Assembly: GCF_039522665.1 (NCBI RefSeq)
Contig: NZ_BAAADV010000001.1
Span: 434,001 to 498,000, forward strand
Direction: 5' to 3'
Source of the DNA: Natronoarchaeum mannanilyticum
GTDB taxonomy: Archaea > Halobacteriota > Halobacteria > Halobacteriales > Natronoarchaeaceae
Length of the DNA: 64,000 bases
Shown: piece after piece, positions 49,822-61,910 of the stretch
How positions within the stretch are numbered: the first letter of the stretch is position 1
Layout of the letters: the number at the start of each line of letters is the position of its first letter
Made by a program: the position numbers and the translations under genes
The notes under the pieces: generated by a model
The model's database searches: none
What the model saw: only the letters and a program-made list of their open reading frames with translations
What the model was told of the DNA's origin: nothing

Positions 49822-50637
49822 TCAGGCCCGCTTCGCGTCGACGACCTCGTAGCCGATGTTCTGGTCGCGGAGCTTGTCGGTGTGGGACGACAGGACGTTC
49901 GTGGCGGCCAGCAAGAGCACGTCCAGGCCCTTCGTCGCGGCCTCCTGAACGGCGGGTGCGGTGCCGAAGCGGACGTCCGGGTCGATATCGGCGGCGTCGG
50001 CCGCGGCGAGGGCTTCGGTCCCCGCGGCGGCGATCAGGTCGTGGTCCGCCGCGAGGTCGGCCACCGTCTCGGCGTCGACGGCGGCGCTGCCGCCCTCTCG
50101 TACTCGGGGAACGGCGACGGCCGTCACCGTCCCGAGATCGTAGTCGACGACGCCCTCGAAGTTCGTCACGCCGACGTCCCGCCCGGGCTCGGCGTCGGTC
50201 ACCGCGACCGCGGTCGCGCTCCCGGCCGACCCGGCCATCGCCCGCAGGACGCCGTCCTGCATCGTCAGCGAGACGGTCTCGCCCTCCGAAATCTCGGTGG
50301 TGGCGATGGCAGTCTCGATCTCGACTTCGCCGATCACGTCCTCGGAGACGTGCTGGACGAACGATCGGAGTTCGTCGGTCTGGGAGATGAGCCAGTCGAC
50401 GCCCTCCTTGGTGACCTCGTAGCGCCCGCGGCCCTGCTTGTCGACCTGGCCCTGCTCGATCAGGTCCTGCAGGTAGTCGCTGACGGCCTGGGACGTGACG
50501 CCGATGGCGTCGGCGATCTCCTGCTGGCTCACCGCCGGCTGGCGCTCCGCGATCTCGACCAGGATCTGGTATCTGGTCGCGTTTCGCTTGCTCTCGAGGA
50601 CGCCCGACGCGTCGGCGTCCCCCGCATCCCGTGACAT
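49822..50637 (-). CDS. Winged-helix transcriptional regulator (DUF7839-like)
   Basis: This 271-residue protein has an N-terminal winged helix (about residues 14-80; AVSQQEIADAIGVTSQAVSDYL is the recognition part, GQVDKQGRGRYEVTKEG the wing). A long C-terminal alpha/beta domain follows with no known ligand motif (about 90-271). It resembles the haloarchaeal family often labelled DUF7839 (from memory). It is divergent from cbiT, 147 nt apart, which makes it a candidate regulator of the early cobalamin block. The start at 50637 is preferred over an upstream in-frame ATG at 50664. Confidence 0.78.
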   Translation of the reverse strand: MSRDAGDADASGVLESKRNATRYQILVEIAERQPAVSQQEIADAIGVTSQAVSDYLQDLIEQGQVDKQGRGRYEVTKEGVDWLISQTDELRSFVQHVSEDVIGEVEIETAIATTEISEGETVSLTMQDGVLRAMAGSAGSATAVAVTDAEPGRDVGVTNFEGVVDYDLGTVTAVAVPRVREGGSAAVDAETVADLAADHDLIAAAGTEALAAADAADIDPDVRFGTAPAVQEAATKGLDVLLLAATNVLSSHTDKLRDQNIGYEVVDAKRA

Positions 50638-50741
50638 GGTGGGCACTGCGGGTCGGTAGCACAAGTATGTTTGGAGTATTCCCGAAGAAATTGCGTTATC
50701 GGGATCTCTACTGCCGTTTTAGAAAATAAGATTGTGTTAGT

Positions 50742-50762
50742 ACAACCAAAATTGTTTTACGC
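50742..50762 (+). promoter_or_regulatory. Shared cbi promoter element, copy 1 (before cbiT)
   Basis: A 21-base sequence beginning ACAACCAAAATTG and ending TTTTACGC is identical to the copy at 55604-55624. TTTTAC at the right end is the probable TATA box, about 27 nt before the ATG at 50785. ACAA and TTGT flank a 6-nt spacer. TTGTAC follows about 10 nt later in both copies. A binding site for a cobalamin-pathway regulator is likely. Confidence 0.6.
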
Positions 50763-54417: not shown

Positions 54418-54501
54418 ATGAACGGCGCTGACATATTCGTGAGCCGACTCGTCGAACCGGACGTCCGACCGCCGATCCGGGCGGGGAGGCCGAACCGATG
54501 A
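54418..54501 (+). CDS. Possible 27-residue leader ORF upstream of the sugar kinase
   Basis: An ATG at 54418 opens a 27-codon frame (MNGADIFVSRLVEP...) whose TGA overlaps the kinase ATG at 54498 (ATGA). CTATTATC lies about 25-32 nt before it, the distance expected for a leaderless start. The peptide resembles no known protein. The layout suggests translational coupling or a regulatory leader. Evidence is positional only. Confidence 0.4.
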   Translation: MNGADIFVSRLVEPDVRPPIRAGRPNR

Positions 54502-55460
54502 GCGACCGCTCCGTCCTCATCGTCGGCGAGACGCTCGTCGACATGCTGCCCGAGACCCCGGGGGCGCTTCGCGACGTCGAGTCGTTCCAGCGGCGGGCGG
54601 GCGGCGCGCCCGCGAACGTCGCCGCGCGCCTCGCGGCGCTGGGCTCCGAACCGCTGTTCTGGACCCGCGTCGGCGACGACGCGTTCGGCGACTTTCTGCT
54701 CGACACGCTGGCCGACCGCGGCGTCCCGACGCGGTTCGTCGAGCAGGATCCGGACGCCAAGACGACGCTGGCGTTCGTCGCCCACGACGACAGCCGAGAT
54801 CGCTCCTTCACGTTCTACCGCGACGGCACCGCCGACACGAGACTCGAAACCGGCACCGTCCCGACCGACGCGCTCGAGGGGATCGAGTGGGTGTACGTCG
54901 GCGGCGTCGTCCTCGCGAGCGAGCCCTCCCGGTCGGCCGTGCTGGACCTGATCGACCGCGCGACCGACGCCGGCTGTTCGATCTACTTCGACCCGAACTG
55001 GCGCCCGGAGCTGTGGGACGGCGAGGACGCGAGCGTCCTCCGGGACGCCGCCCGATCCGCGGACGTGCTCAAGGCGACGACCGACGAACTCCGGGAGCTG
55101 GGCTACCGCGGCGAGACGCCCGAGCAGCTCTGCGAGGCGGCCTGCAGCGAGGGGCCCCACACCGTCTTCCTCACGCGGGGCGCCGAGGGGTCGACCGGAT
55201 TTGCCACGAGCGCGGCGCCGTGGGGCGAGGCCGCGGTCGAACGCGACGGGTTCGAGGTCGACGTGAAGGACACGACCGGCGCCGGCGACGCGTTCGTCTC
55301 CGCGACGCTCGGCGCGCTCGCCCGCGGCGAGCGCGACCTCGGCGAAATCCTGCGGTCGGCCAACGCCGCGGCCGCGATCTCGGCGACGACGGTCGGCGCC
55401 ATGGAGCAGCCGCCCGACTGGGAGCGAGTGGAGTCGTTCGCGGCGGAGCGAGAGCAGTAA
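54498..55460 (+). CDS. PfkB-family carbohydrate kinase
   Basis: This 320-residue ribokinase-fold sugar kinase has the N-terminal FQRRAGGAPANVAARLAALG (about residues 30-49) and the C-terminal DTTGAGDAFVSATLGALA (about 256-273), with the catalytic Asp in GAGD. Residues VGETLVDMLPE and YFDPNWRPELW are typical of fructokinase or 2-keto-3-deoxygluconate kinase-like members. The substrate is not determined. It sits inside the cobalamin cluster without an obvious role there; salvage of a sugar or nucleoside such as alpha-ribazole would be a guess. Confidence 0.88.
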   Translation: MSDRSVLIVGETLVDMLPETPGALRDVESFQRRAGGAPANVAARLAALGSEPLFWTRVGDDAFGDFLLDTLADRGVPTRFVEQDPDAKTTLAFVAHDDSRDRSFTFYRDGTADTRLETGTVPTDALEGIEWVYVGGVVLASEPSRSAVLDLIDRATDAGCSIYFDPNWRPELWDGEDASVLRDAARSADVLKATTDELRELGYRGETPEQLCEAACSEGPHTVFLTRGAEGSTGFATSAAPWGEAAVERDGFEVDVKDTTGAGDAFVSATLGALARGERDLGEILRSANAAAAISATTVGAMEQPPDWERVESFAAEREQ

Positions 55461-55599: not shown

Positions 55600-55624
55600 T
55601 AAAACAACCAAAATTGTTTTACGC
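55600..55624 (+). promoter_or_regulatory. Shared cbi promoter element, copy 2
   Basis: Positions 55604-55624 are identical over 21 nt to 50742-50762 before cbiT. Here the flanks extend it to a perfect 8-bp inverted repeat, TAAAACAA (55600-55607) and TTGTTTTA (55614-55621). TTTTAC serves as a TATA box about 27 nt before the ATG at 55646, and TTGTAC follows at the same relative spot as in copy 1. Confidence 0.6.
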
Positions 55625-56637: not shown

Positions 56638-57630
56638 ATGAGCACGGACGACACCACCGACGAGAGCACAGCGAACGAGAACGCAGAAGGCGAGAGTAAG
56701 TGCGGCGCCGCGGACGCCGAGGCGACCGCTGGGACCGAGAGCAAGTGCGGCGGGGCGTCTTCGGCGTCGACCGACGAGTCCAGTTCGTCCTGTGGCGCCA
56801 CCACGGACGATTCGACCGACGAGAAGGTCGGTTCGACGGTCGAGGACTTCGACGCGGATCCCGGCAGCCTCACCGCCGTCGGACTCGGTCCCGGCCAGCC
56901 CGAGGGGATGACCGCCCGCGCCCGCGAGGCGCTGCTCGACGCCGAGCACGTCGTCGGCTACACGACCTACACCGAGCTGCTGCCCGACGAGATCACCGAG
57001 TCGGCCGACGAGGTGTACGACACGCCGATGTGCGGCGAAGTCTCGCGCACCGAGGAAGCCATCGACCGCGCGCTGGCGGGCAACGACGTCGCGATCATCG
57101 GCAGCGGCGACCCGAACGTCTACGCGCTGGCGGGGCTCGCCCTCGAGATCGCCGAGTCGAAGGGGGCGACGGCATCGATGCTCGACTTCGACGTCGTTCC
57201 GGGCGTCCCAGCCGCCCAGTCGTGCGCCGCGCGACTCGGCGCGCCACTCGTGAACGACACCGTCTCGATCTCGCTGTCGGACCACCTCACCGACATGCCG
57301 ACGATCGAGTCGCGGCTCCACGCCGCCGCCAAGGAGGGCTTCACGATCGCGATCTACAACCCCTGGTCGCGCAAGCGCCGCGACAACTACGAGAAGTGCT
57401 GCGAGATCCTCCTCGAACATCGGGCGCCGGAGACGCCGGTCGGCGTCGTCCGCGGCGCCGGCCGCGAGGACGAGCGCGTCGAGATCGTCGAGCTCCGGGA
57501 GCTGCCCGAGCTCGGCGAGACCGAGCTGGTCGACATGACGACGACGCTGCTCGTCGGCAACGAGGACACGTACGTCTGGGACGACCGGATGGTGACGCCG
57601 CGGGGCTACGAGTCCAAGTATGACTACTGA
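56638..57630 (+). CDS. cbiH: Cobalt-factor III C17-methyltransferase CbiH
   Basis: This 330-residue protein has a ~75-residue disordered N-terminus containing three Cys-Gly sites (SKCGAA, SKCGGA, SSCGAT). The methylase domain follows: LTAVGLGPGQPEGMTARA, VGYTTYTELLPDEI, CGEVSRTEEAIDRALAGNDV, GSGDPNVYALAGLAL and YNPWSRKRRDNYEKC. The VGYxxY motif and YNPxSxxR are diagnostic of CbiH. It methylates C17 and drives ring contraction. It starts 3 nt after the preceding gene. The extra Cys motifs are unusual for CbiH and may bind a metal or Fe-S cluster. Confidence 0.92.
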   Translation: MSTDDTTDESTANENAEGESKCGAADAEATAGTESKCGGASSASTDESSSSCGATTDDSTDEKVGSTVEDFDADPGSLTAVGLGPGQPEGMTARAREALLDAEHVVGYTTYTELLPDEITESADEVYDTPMCGEVSRTEEAIDRALAGNDVAIIGSGDPNVYALAGLALEIAESKGATASMLDFDVVPGVPAAQSCAARLGAPLVNDTVSISLSDHLTDMPTIESRLHAAAKEGFTIAIYNPWSRKRRDNYEKCCEILLEHRAPETPVGVVRGAGREDERVEIVELRELPELGETELVDMTTTLLVGNEDTYVWDDRMVTPRGYESKYDY

Positions 57631-57877
57631 GTACCGCGTCAGCCTCGACCGGGACGCCTGCGAGGGAATCTTCGCCTGTCTCGTCCGCGACGCGCGGTTC
57701 GTCGAAGCCGCGGACGGGCTGGCGTCGATCGAGGGCGGCGACGCGGAGGCCGGAGGGGACGCCGCTGACGCCGCCGACCAGCCCCTCGTCGCATCCTTCG
57801 ACGACGATCGAATCGACGACGCGCGCCGGGCGGCGGCCGCCTGTCCGGTCGACGCCATCGAGGTGACCGAGCTGTGA
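57620..57877 (+). CDS. Three-cysteine ferredoxin-like protein
   Basis: This 85-residue acidic ferredoxin begins YRVSLDRDACEGIFACLVRD (Cys 14 and Cys 20) and ends AAACPVDAIEVTEL (Cys ~75). The usual C-x2-C-x2-C pattern lacks its middle Cys (C-E-G-I-F-A-C), so only three ligands are seen. A [3Fe-4S] cluster or a fourth non-Cys ligand is possible. It overlaps the end of cbiH by 11 nt and the next gene by four bases. It is thus a dedicated electron carrier of the cobalamin operon, perhaps for a reductive corrin step. Confidence 0.85.
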   Translation: MTTEYRVSLDRDACEGIFACLVRDARFVEAADGLASIEGGDAEAGGDAADAADQPLVASFDDDRIDDARRAAAACPVDAIEVTEL

Positions 57878-58602
57878 GCGACGCGGACGAGAACGCGGCG
57901 GCTCGCGAGGACGCCGACCCGACGCCGGACGCACCGGCGGATCTGCTCGACGCGACGCGCGAGACGGCGTACTTCTGGGGGCGCGTCGCCGGCGACGGCG
58001 ATCTGGAGAGCGACTGCGTGACGGTCCGGGTCGGCGACGAGACCGCCGCCGACGCCCTGGCGGCGATCGCCGGCGTCGACGAGCGCGACCGCAACGTCGA
58101 AGCCCGCGAGTCGGCCCACGACGCGTCGATCGTCCGCTTCGAGGAGGAGTACGAGCTGCAGGTGTTCGGCGCGCCGGCCGATCGGGCCGGCGCCGCACTC
58201 GGACTACCCCTGGACGGCCAGCCCGGCGGCTACCGCTTCGACGCGCTGGCCGGTCACCGAGCCGACCTCCTCCGGGGACTGCTGGAGGCCTGCGGAACGA
58301 TCTGCTTCCGGGAGTCCTCGAACTCGGTGGGGATCTCGTTCGTCCACGACGACGAGCGCCTGCTGGAGACGATCCGCTCCCTGCTCGCCGACGCCGACCC
58401 CGACGTTCGAGGCGACGAACTCTCGGAGACCTCCTCGGGCGGCTACTGGTTCGGTCTGTCCGACGACTCCGACGCCGAGGCGTTCGCCCGGTGGCTCTAC
58501 GCCGGGACGGACGAGACCGGGCTGTATTCGGCCGAGCGACGGACGAAGCTCCGCCGCAGCGTCGAGCGAGCGACCGGCGGTGACGTGGGGGAGCTGTCGT
58601 GA
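57874..58602 (+). CDS. Cobalamin-operon protein with LAGLIDADG-like fold
   Basis: This 242-residue protein is found next to cbi genes in haloarchaea and is usually labelled only cobalamin biosynthesis protein. Two segments read as LAGLIDADG helices: FWGRVAGDGDL (residues 34-44) and LRGLLEACGTI (133-143). Each is followed by strand-helix units (CVTVRVGDETAADALAAIAG; VGISFVHDDERLLETIRSLL). The end LYAGTDETGLYSAERRTKLRR resembles the final helix of homing endonucleases and inteins. The catalytic acid is present in motif 1 (Asp 41) but replaced by Cys 140 in motif 2. A non-cleaving, DNA-binding or corrin-binding role is inferred. It starts at GTG 57874. Confidence 0.8.
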   Translation: MSDADENAAAREDADPTPDAPADLLDATRETAYFWGRVAGDGDLESDCVTVRVGDETAADALAAIAGVDERDRNVEARESAHDASIVRFEEEYELQVFGAPADRAGAALGLPLDGQPGGYRFDALAGHRADLLRGLLEACGTICFRESSNSVGISFVHDDERLLETIRSLLADADPDVRGDELSETSSGGYWFGLSDDSDAEAFARWLYAGTDETGLYSAERRTKLRRSVERATGGDVGELS

Positions 58603-58648: not shown

Positions 58649-59875
58649 GTGACGGCCGACGCCGCGAGCGCGCCGGCCGCGCTCGACGACGAGGCGGTGC
58701 TGCTGGTCGGGCACGGCTCCCGGCGCGAGAAGTCCAACGAGCAGGTCCGCGACCTGGCGGCCGACCTCGAAAACCGGCTCGGCGTCCCGGTCGACGCCGG
58801 TTTCCTCGAACTGGCCGAGCCCTCGATCGCCGACGCTGTCGACGCGCTCGCGCCGACGGTCGGTCGGATCACGGTCGTCCAGCTGTCGCTGTTCGCCGCG
58901 AGTCACGTGAAGAACGACGTGCCGCTCGCCGTCCAGCAAGCCCGGTCGACTCACGAGGACGTCACGATCCACAGCGGCGCCCACCTCGGCGTCCATCCCG
59001 CGATCGTCGATCTTCTGGACGACCGCGCCGCGGCGGTCGAGGCCGAAATGGGCGTCGACCGCGAGGTCGACGACGTCGCAGTCGTGCTCTGCGCACGCGG
59101 CTCAAGCGACCCAGACGCCAACGCCGACGCGCACAAGCTCGCCCGGCTGCTGTACGAGGGCCGCGCGTTCTCGGGGGTCGACACCGCGTTCATCGGCGTC
59201 ACGGAGCCCCGCCTCTCGGACGCGCTCCACGGCGTCGCGAAGCGCCGCCCCGACGCCGTCGTCGTCCTGCCCTACATGCTCGGCGACGGCGTCCTCACCC
59301 AGCGCGTCCGGGATCGAACCGCCGAGTTCGACGACGAGTACCCCTACGTCGACGCGCTGGCGGGCGACCCGCTGGGCACCGACCCGCGCCTGCTCGACGT
59401 GCTCGGCGACCGCTGGCAGGCGGCCCGCACCGACAGCGTCGAGATGTCCTGCGACACCTGCAAGTACAAGGTCGAACTCGACGGGTACGAGGAGGATGTC
59501 GGCGGCGCGCGGGCGATGCTGCGCGCGCTGAACCACCAGGCCGCCCACGAGGACCGCGAAGACGTCGACGACGACCCACACGTCCACGACGCGCCCGAGA
59601 AGCGCGTCTCGGTCTGCACGAACCAGACCTGCGCGGCAGACGGCGCGCCGGCCGTCCTCGAACGCCTGCGCCAGGCGGCCCGCGACTCCGACCAGTGCGA
59701 CGTGCGCATCACGCGCTCGTCGTGTCTCGGGCGCTGCGGCGAAGGGCCGATGGTGACGGTGTCGCCCGACGGCGTCTGGTACGGCGACGTCGACGCCGAC
59801 GACGCCGAGCGCATCGTCTCGGACCACCTGGACCGGGATCGGATCGTCTCCGAACTGGTCGATCAGACGCTCTGA
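58649..59875 (+). CDS. cbiX: Sirohydrochlorin cobaltochelatase CbiX fused to a [2Fe-2S] thioredoxin-like domain
   Basis: This 408-residue protein has two CbiX-type halves and a ferredoxin-like end. The first half (about residues 15-125) keeps the metal-handling His in VLLVGHGSRREKS and in SLFAASHVKND. The second half (about 135-260) has VVLCARGSSDPDANAD and VLPYMLGDGVL, where both His are lost. It ends with CDTCKYKV, then a thioredoxin-like [2Fe-2S] module (about 312-395) with CTNQTC and SSCLGRCGEGPMV. It inserts cobalt into sirohydrochlorin at the start of the anaerobic pathway. The Fe-S module may sense redox state or protect the chelatase. Confidence 0.9.
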   Translation: MTADAASAPAALDDEAVLLVGHGSRREKSNEQVRDLAADLENRLGVPVDAGFLELAEPSIADAVDALAPTVGRITVVQLSLFAASHVKNDVPLAVQQARSTHEDVTIHSGAHLGVHPAIVDLLDDRAAAVEAEMGVDREVDDVAVVLCARGSSDPDANADAHKLARLLYEGRAFSGVDTAFIGVTEPRLSDALHGVAKRRPDAVVVLPYMLGDGVLTQRVRDRTAEFDDEYPYVDALAGDPLGTDPRLLDVLGDRWQAARTDSVEMSCDTCKYKVELDGYEEDVGGARAMLRALNHQAAHEDREDVDDDPHVHDAPEKRVSVCTNQTCAADGAPAVLERLRQAARDSDQCDVRITRSSCLGRCGEGPMVTVSPDGVWYGDVDADDAERIVSDHLDRDRIVSELVDQTL

Positions 59876-59914: not shown

Positions 59915-60286
59915 ATGACCTGTCACGAACTCGAAGCGCTGCGACTCGGACTGATGAACGTCCTCGGCACCGAGGACCGAAGCGCCCGCGACCACGCGGA
60001 GCAAGAACTGGAGGGCGAGCTCTCGGGCCCGATCGAGGGACTGGCGAACGCAGAGACGCTCTCAGCCGTCCAGAGCCATCTCGACGCCGCGCTCGTCGAC
60101 CTCGAAGAGGAGGTCGCGAACGCGGACGAGGACTCGGCGGAGTACGACTACCTGCGCGGCCGCCTCGTCGCGGTGCGGGACGCCGAGCGCGCGGTCCGCA
60201 GACTGACCGAGCAGGGCGAGGACGTCCTCGCGGGGCTGGGCGAGGCCCACGACGTCCTCCACGAGACGTTCCCCGCAGATGAGTAG
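59915..60286 (+). CDS. DUF3209 family protein
   Basis: This 123-residue helical protein begins MTCHELEALRLGLMNVLG, the hallmark of DUF3209, a family seen only near haloarchaeal and some bacterial cobalamin genes. It has a single Cys and a His at the start (Cys 3, His 4) that could hold a metal. The remainder is acidic helix (LDAALVDLEEEVANADEDS). It may have an accessory role in cobalt or chelatase handling, inferred from context. The stop overlaps the next gene by 8 nt. Confidence 0.85.
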   Translation: MTCHELEALRLGLMNVLGTEDRSARDHAEQELEGELSGPIEGLANAETLSAVQSHLDAALVDLEEEVANADEDSAEYDYLRGRLVAVRDAERAVRRLTEQGEDVLAGLGEAHDVLHETFPADE

Positions 60287-61595: not shown

Positions 61596-61910
61596 TCAGT
61601 CGGCGTCGGACGCCAGTTCTTCTGCGAGCAGAGTCGGAACGTCGGCCGGGCGCACGTTCTCGTACCACTCGTCGCGCGGCTGGAACCCCACGGCGGCGCC
61701 GTCTTCGCTACAGAGCCCGAGGCAGGACGTCTCGACGACCGCCGCCTCGGTCCAGAACAGCCCCTCGTCGCGAAGCCAGTCTGTCGCCGCCTCGACGACC
61801 GCCTCGCCGCCGACCTCGGCGCAGGAGGCGTACTCGCCGTCGCGGGCGTTCGTGCAGACCAGGATCCACGTCAGCTCCCGGTCGCGCTGGGCGTCCGTAC
61901 AGCGCCGCAC
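61596..61910 (-). CDS. Thioredoxin-like [2Fe-2S] ferredoxin
   Basis: This 104-residue protein has ligand sites VCTNARDGEYASC (about residues 18-30) and TSCLGLCSEDG (about 61-71), the C-x(n)-C...C-x3-C pattern of thioredoxin-like [2Fe-2S] proteins. It is related to the C-terminal module of the CbiX fusion. The start is a GTG at 61910. It lies 3 nt after cbtA in a cbtB-cbtA-ferredoxin unit. A chelatase or cobalt-uptake redox partner is a reasonable inference. Confidence 0.87.
   Translation of the reverse strand: MRRCTDAQRDRELTWILVCTNARDGEYASCAEVGGEAVVEAATDWLRDEGLFWTEAAVVETSCLGLCSEDGAAVGFQPRDEWYENVRPADVPTLLAEELASDAD

Follow-up and report, generated by a model that had tools for sequence, protein, structure and literature searches.

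Gene organisation of the cobalamin cluster

The DNA analysed here (the window) is a stretch of 64,000 nucleotides from Natronoarchaeum mannanilyticum. It carries a haloarchaeal cobalt-early cobalamin cluster consisting of cbiT, cbiL, cbiF, cbiG, cbiH1, cbiH2, a ferredoxin gene (fdx), the gene for a protein that we call LAG, cbiX, a DUF3209 gene and a gene for a PQQ-type propeller protein. The names of cbiT, cbiL and cbiF in the window were assigned by sequence together with gene order. The open reading frame of LAG was confirmed at the location described earlier, and it lies among the following genes.

56638-57630, forward strand: CbiH2 (CobJ/CbiH methyltransferase), upstream of the ferredoxin gene; family match
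57620-57877, forward strand: ferredoxin (Fer4_15), with a stop overlapping the LAG start; family match
57874-58602, forward strand: LAG, a LAGLIDADG protein of 242 amino acids, almost certainly cleavage-dead; open reading frame with GTG start
58649-59875, forward strand: CbiX cobaltochelatase with an MSCDTC motif and a C-terminal thioredoxin-like [2Fe-2S] domain; constant neighbour downstream of LAG
59915-60286, forward strand: DUF3209 protein; family match

Two further genes were observed in the same region. A sugar-kinase-like gene, recognised by reading only, is located between cbiG and cbiH1 (54498-55460, forward strand), and a promoter motif described below recurs after it. A small cysteine-containing protein, for which no Pfam match was obtained, is encoded at 61596-61910 on the reverse strand; it is conserved and convergent to many cbi cluster ends.

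LAG was detected in 75 of the 145 Halobacteria genomes sampled. In total 80 named LAG loci were retrieved, and the family alignment comprised 79 sequences. A search of 393 genomes of the phylum gave matches in Halobacteria only, and no relatives were found among the viral contigs searched. Substitutions between close relatives occur mainly at third codon positions (0.025, 0.019 and 0.245 differences per codon at positions 1, 2 and 3, respectively, in six Haloarcula), indicating that LAG is a real protein under purifying selection.

The order cbiH2-fdx-LAG-cbiX is preserved in nearly all of the 80 named loci. In 74 of them the stop codon of LAG either runs into the cbiX start or directly adjoins it (ATGA, GTGA or TGATG); the window species has 46 bases between the two genes. 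Upstream, the stop codon of fdx likewise shares bases with the start of LAG in 70 of 76 loci. In one genome (G014) the ferredoxin gene has been relocated and LAG is still found in front of cbiX. In Halospeciosus flavus (L083, 8709-9989) cbiH2 and the ferredoxin gene are fused and encode a protein of 426 amino acids. Based on this fusion, together with the arrangement in G014, the ferredoxin probably goes with CbiH2 and LAG with CbiX. The LAG protein of G014 (L167:8748-9566) was also seen to have a repeated ATSN insert that separates its two domains.

CbiG was present in 79 of the 145 genomes, among them all 75 with LAG. DUF3209 was present in 76, namely the 75 LAG-positive genomes and one more (G052). 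In G021, LAG, DUF3209 and a CbiX with a 2Fe-2S tail co-occur although their genes are unlinked. The LAG of this genome is divergent and has 198 amino acids; it is without Asp41 and retains C140, C144, K146, G153, S155 and the motif SSGxYWF. Its gene is flanked by two CDF cation-efflux genes and a rhodanese gene, and the position between cation-efflux genes gives a weak hint of a link to metal. LAG is fixed and vertically kept in the cobalamin cluster, and it would be a member of the cobalt-insertion module in haloarchaeal B12 synthesis.

Fold and conserved residues of LAG

When the LAG protein of the window was used as a single query, no significant sequence match was obtained in Pfam, NCBIfam or the PDB, and the relation to LAGLIDADG proteins is therefore visible only via the family. 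Pfam LAGLIDADG_3 matched 40 of the 79 members, mostly weakly (best E 3.6e-5), with one member (L060) exceeding the gathering score at 23.6 bits. The LAG profile also picked up the RpoA'' intein in G021 (E 0.0014). With hhalign, LAG was aligned to the haloarchaeal RpoA'' (archaeal RNA polymerase) intein over 161 columns, including both motifs, with a probability of 90%, compared to 0.1% for two control proteins. The kinship to LAGLIDADG families that the original prediction had proposed was thus recovered by profile-profile comparison.

An AlphaFold2 model based on the 79-sequence alignment reached a pLDDT of 89.9 and a pTM of 0.87. Domain 1 of the model is formed by helix 29-41, strands, helix 56-66, two long strands and helix 101-109, and domain 2 has the same order of elements once more, from helix 122-140 to helix 220-234. 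The ends of the motif helices, D41 and C140, are 99 residues apart. Two LAGLIDADG-like helices at a distance of about 100 residues, each with a pattern of strands and a helix behind it and with a closing helix at the end, had been read from the sequence, and all of these elements are present in the model. In a Foldseek comparison against the PDB, ranks 1-28 were all LAGLIDADG proteins, with I-Tsp061I as the best match (E 2.8e-6), and the TliVMA intein, the bI3 maturase, I-DmoI, WhiA (E 6.3e-5) and I-SceI among the further matches. VIA-align gave Z scores of 14.2 for PI-PfuI, 14.0 for I-Tsp061I, 13.7 for I-DmoI and 12.3 for WhiA, and the LAGLIDADG scaffold is accordingly supported by structure comparison as well. 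The main elements of the protein are located as follows.

57958-57996, forward strand: LAGLIDADG helix 1, residues 29-41, RETAYFWGRVAGD, catalytic position D41; model and alignment
58237-58293, forward strand: LAGLIDADG helix 2, residues 122-140, ending LLRGLLEAC, catalytic position C140; model and alignment
58291-58347, forward strand: most conserved LAG surface, hairpin of domain 2, residues 140-158, CGTICFRESSNSVGISFVH; alignment

The two catalytic positions were compared across the 79 sequences. Position 140 is cysteine in 78 of them, and the replacement of the motif-2 acid pointed out in the original prediction is therefore a conserved, new residue. The aspartate assigned to motif 1 is not strictly conserved, however, as position 41 is Asp in 61 sequences, Ser in 7, Asn in 5, Gly in 5 and Glu in 1. 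Double-strand cleavage by a LAGLIDADG enzyme requires both catalytic acids. Since this pair has been lost, LAG with hardly any doubt is a domesticated, cleavage-dead LAGLIDADG protein, and a double-strand-cleaving LAG is refuted. With the nuclease site lost and the position in the cluster fixed, the claim of a domesticated LAGLIDADG protein inside the cobalamin operon holds.

Residues that LAG has inherited from its LAGLIDADG ancestry and still contains are R134, G135, R222 and K225. Other invariant or near-invariant residues look new, namely H82, R78, R88, R121, C140, C144, K/R146, G153, S155, H158 (73 of 79), S187, S188 and W192. C144 and E138 are each found in 79 of 79 sequences. Within the hairpin 140-158, C144, G153, S155 and V157 are invariant and position 146 is basic, whereas its counterpart in domain 1, likewise a beta hairpin, is short and acidic and varies between members. 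The conserved surface is therefore asymmetric, which would not be expected if both halves of the protein were engaged on DNA in the same way.

In comparison to known systems, LAG shares the two-domain alpha-beta-beta-alpha-beta-beta-alpha fold with archaeal LAGLIDADG endonucleases (I-DmoI, I-Tsp061I, PI-PfuI and haloarchaeal inteins), along with the RG of helix 2 and the RxxK of the closing helix, at VIA Z scores of about 14. It differs from them in having Cys for the second acid, a variable first acid and short beta1-beta2 hairpins, and in being a fixed single-copy operon gene with no intein or intron context. Like LAG, WhiA (DUF199) is a catalytically dead, domesticated LAGLIDADG protein that is vertically kept in cellular genomes. 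WhiA is, however, a transcription factor of Gram-positive bacteria with a C-terminal HTH, whereas LAG has no HTH match, belongs to a biosynthetic operon of Halobacteria and contains the invariant C140 and C144.

Other LAGLIDADG sequences were also encountered. The window's own genome encodes a free-standing LAGLIDADG protein of 297 amino acids (L112:1282-2175; C3, around 279367), which unlike LAG has acids in both motifs (FLFGDGSL and LADADGYF). In G021 a ribonucleotide-reductase-like open reading frame of 2214 codons (L166:10354-16998) contains three intein-like LAGLIDADG segments, as read by eye.

Genomes without LAG and the cobaltochelatase CbiX

Four CbiG-positive genomes were LAG-negative even by profile search: G001 and G007, which belong to one genus, G129 and G052. 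In G001, G007 and G129 the ferredoxin, DUF3209 and propeller genes are absent near the cluster. These three genomes are also without heme-copper oxidase subunit I (COX1), and they are therefore probably anaerobes. G052 retains ferredoxin, DUF3209 and an ordinary CbiX. All four LAG-negative genomes contain a CbiX whose C-terminal tail is rich in His (11-12 per 30 residues).

L120:6918-8039, L121:11796-13007 and L123:11458-12390: His-tailed CbiX in LAG-negative genomes
L122:11703-12644: His-tailed CbiX in G052

In G052 the His-tailed protein is encoded by a second cbiX, which occupies the slot of LAG between fdx and the ordinary cbiX. In the LAG-positive loci (about 100 examined) CbiX has the [2Fe-2S] domain and is without a His tail, with one exception. 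This exception, L084, carries LAG and a His-tailed CbiX together, with DUF3209 absent, and strict mutual exclusion of the two is thereby ruled out. A Fisher test of the His tail in 4/4 LAG-negative genomes versus 1/108 gave 8e-7, a value that is overstated as the genomes are related and represent at most three independent negative lineages. The contrast is further limited in that three of the four LAG-negative genomes also differ in other respects (ferredoxin, DUF3209 and COX1).

CbiXL of B. megaterium contains an Fe-S site of the form MXCXXC. A role in the storage and delivery of metal has been proposed for its His-rich region, and chelation does not require the His-rich tail (PMC7689651). 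The CbiX of LAG-less haloarchaea resembles this protein in its His-rich tail after the MSCxxC motif. The His-rich region of the bacterial protein may be a functional, non-homologous analogue of LAG, but it is a tail of the chelatase and not a separate folded protein.

The leading explanation, to which we give a probability of about 40%, is that LAG is a partner of the cobaltochelatase CbiX in the delivery or gating of cobalt. According to this proposal, a LAGLIDADG homing-endonuclease fold would have lost its nuclease site and become fixed in the cobalt-insertion module. LAG would work with CbiX in Co2+ delivery or gating, or in presentation of the tetrapyrrole, and its acting face may be the conserved surface of the second domain around C140, C144 and K/R146. 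In doing so it would replace the His-rich tail for metal storage that CbiX bears in the LAG-less genomes. The simplest reading is that LAG, along with the 2Fe-2S CbiX and DUF3209, is part of the cobalt-insertion module and has taken over a task done elsewhere by the His tail. The support for this role consists throughout of genomic association. To our knowledge, LAGLIDADG proteins of known function all act on nucleic acids, which they cut, bind or help to splice, and this counts against the chelatase-partner reading. More tentative still is the broader proposal that a LAGLIDADG fold has gone from nucleic acids to cobalt handling as a chelatase partner in aerobic haloarchaea, with a cysteine at the former nuclease site and the His tail of CbiX displaced. 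In the open-licence literature we found no previous mention of LAGLIDADG proteins in connection with cobalamin synthesis.

Alternative explanations and the cbi promoter motif

The original prediction also suggested that LAG could be a DNA-binding regulator. Such a WhiA-like regulator of the cobalamin genes might respond to cobalt, to corrinoids or to the redox state via C140 and C144. WhiA is indeed related to LAG by fold, as described above, and provides the precedent of a LAGLIDADG transcription factor (PMC3781837). In addition, the conserved basic residues R78, R88 and K/R146 are on strands equivalent to the DNA-facing sheet and may themselves face DNA. LAG is without the HTH of WhiA, however, as no match was obtained with Pfam and the protein ends just past helix 220-234, and the acidic domain-1 hairpin does not favour binding of DNA either. 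The gene is situated mid-operon and is translationally coupled to cbiX, and an enzyme partner therefore suits better than a regulator. An argument from net charge was dropped, as LAG (-7.1 per 100 residues) is within the range of the haloarchaeal intein endonucleases (-3.3 to -9.5) and the two are not separated by this measure.

The cbi clusters contain a strongly conserved promoter motif that bears on the same question, and its copies in the window, together with a neighbouring HTH gene, are given here.

50743-50758, forward strand: promoter motif CAANCANAATTGTTTT, upstream of cbiT
55605-55620, forward strand: second copy of promoter motif CAANCANAATTGTTTT, upstream of cbiH1
49822-50664, reverse strand: HTH protein (MarR_2 + DUF7839), divergent from cbiT in many loci; family match

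The motif was found upstream of cbiT in 72 loci. It has the form CAA-N6-TTG with similar flanking repeats about 20-21 bases apart, a pattern that suggests a dimeric regulator. Most sampled genomes have one to three copies, chiefly at cbi clusters. The motif is retained in L120-L123, which are cbi-positive and all without LAG, and it is therefore independent of LAG; the idea of LAG as its binder is weakened accordingly. The MarR_2 + DUF7839 protein, encoded divergently upstream of cbiT, was present in all 145 genomes, and a motif-like site is found just before its gene in G008 and G015. Because the motif occurs in LAG-less loci and this divergent HTH protein is ubiquitous, the cbi promoter motif is probably the site of a different regulator and not of LAG, and the MarR_2 + DUF7839 protein is a candidate for it. 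LAG may still bind DNA at other sites. A WhiA-like role for LAG is somewhat less likely than a partnership with CbiX, and this part of the original prediction is not supported. The putative metal or corrin binding through Cys140, which had been proposed alongside it, fits the genomic pattern better.

A role as RNA binder in the manner of a maturase, or as a structural adaptor, for example a scaffold for CbiX, DUF3209 and ferredoxin, would involve neither metal nor operator DNA. The structural matches of LAG include maturases of the LAGLIDADG type (for example bI3), the hairpins conserved on one face could form a surface for protein contacts, and the joint occurrence of LAG, DUF3209 and the 2Fe-2S-tailed CbiX in G021, even unlinked, would agree with an adaptor. 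No intron is associated with LAG, though, and two invariant cysteines together with the invariant H82 would be unusual for a simple scaffold, so that we consider this possibility improbable.

The LAG ortholog of Haloferax volcanii, assigned by gene order (L100), is HVO_B0055, located between HVO_B0056 and cbiX1 (HVO_B0054). In the accessible part of PMC8305020 (2021) HVO_B0055 is listed as 'function unassigned', with neither fold nor family given there. It is one of four unassigned genes of the cluster, which the paper calls obvious candidates for the steps of CbiD and CbiJ. LAG might therefore fill one of these open steps of the pathway (EC 2.1.1.195 or EC 1.3.1.106). None of the 145 Halobacteria searched has CbiD or CbiJ, and LAG follows the de novo pathway closely, with all 75 carriers having CbiG. 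But G001, G007 and G129 have no CbiD, CbiJ or LAG and yet retain cbiT, L, F, G, H1, H2 and X, which weakens LAG as the gap enzyme and argues against it as a general gap filler, even if these genomes could have another solution. Moreover, no methyltransferase or reductase relative of the LAG fold is known and a site for SAM or NAD(P)H was not recognised either, and we regard a role in either step as very doubtful. Least probable by far is that LAG still is, or until recently was, a functioning homing endonuclease, as it has the fold of one but has lost the pair of catalytic acids, keeps a constant position across the clade under purifying selection, matches no intein domain, is not shown to lie in an intron and has no viral relatives.

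If LAG does have a place in cobalt insertion, this fixed, cleavage-dead protein would mean that the fold of a selfish element has been recruited to cofactor metabolism. Of the four genes without an assignment in the cobalamin cluster of haloarchaea, one has now been given a fold. In the genetically tractable Haloferax it also becomes testable by which means the cobalt-early route, which is sensitive to oxygen, operates in aerobic haloarchaea.
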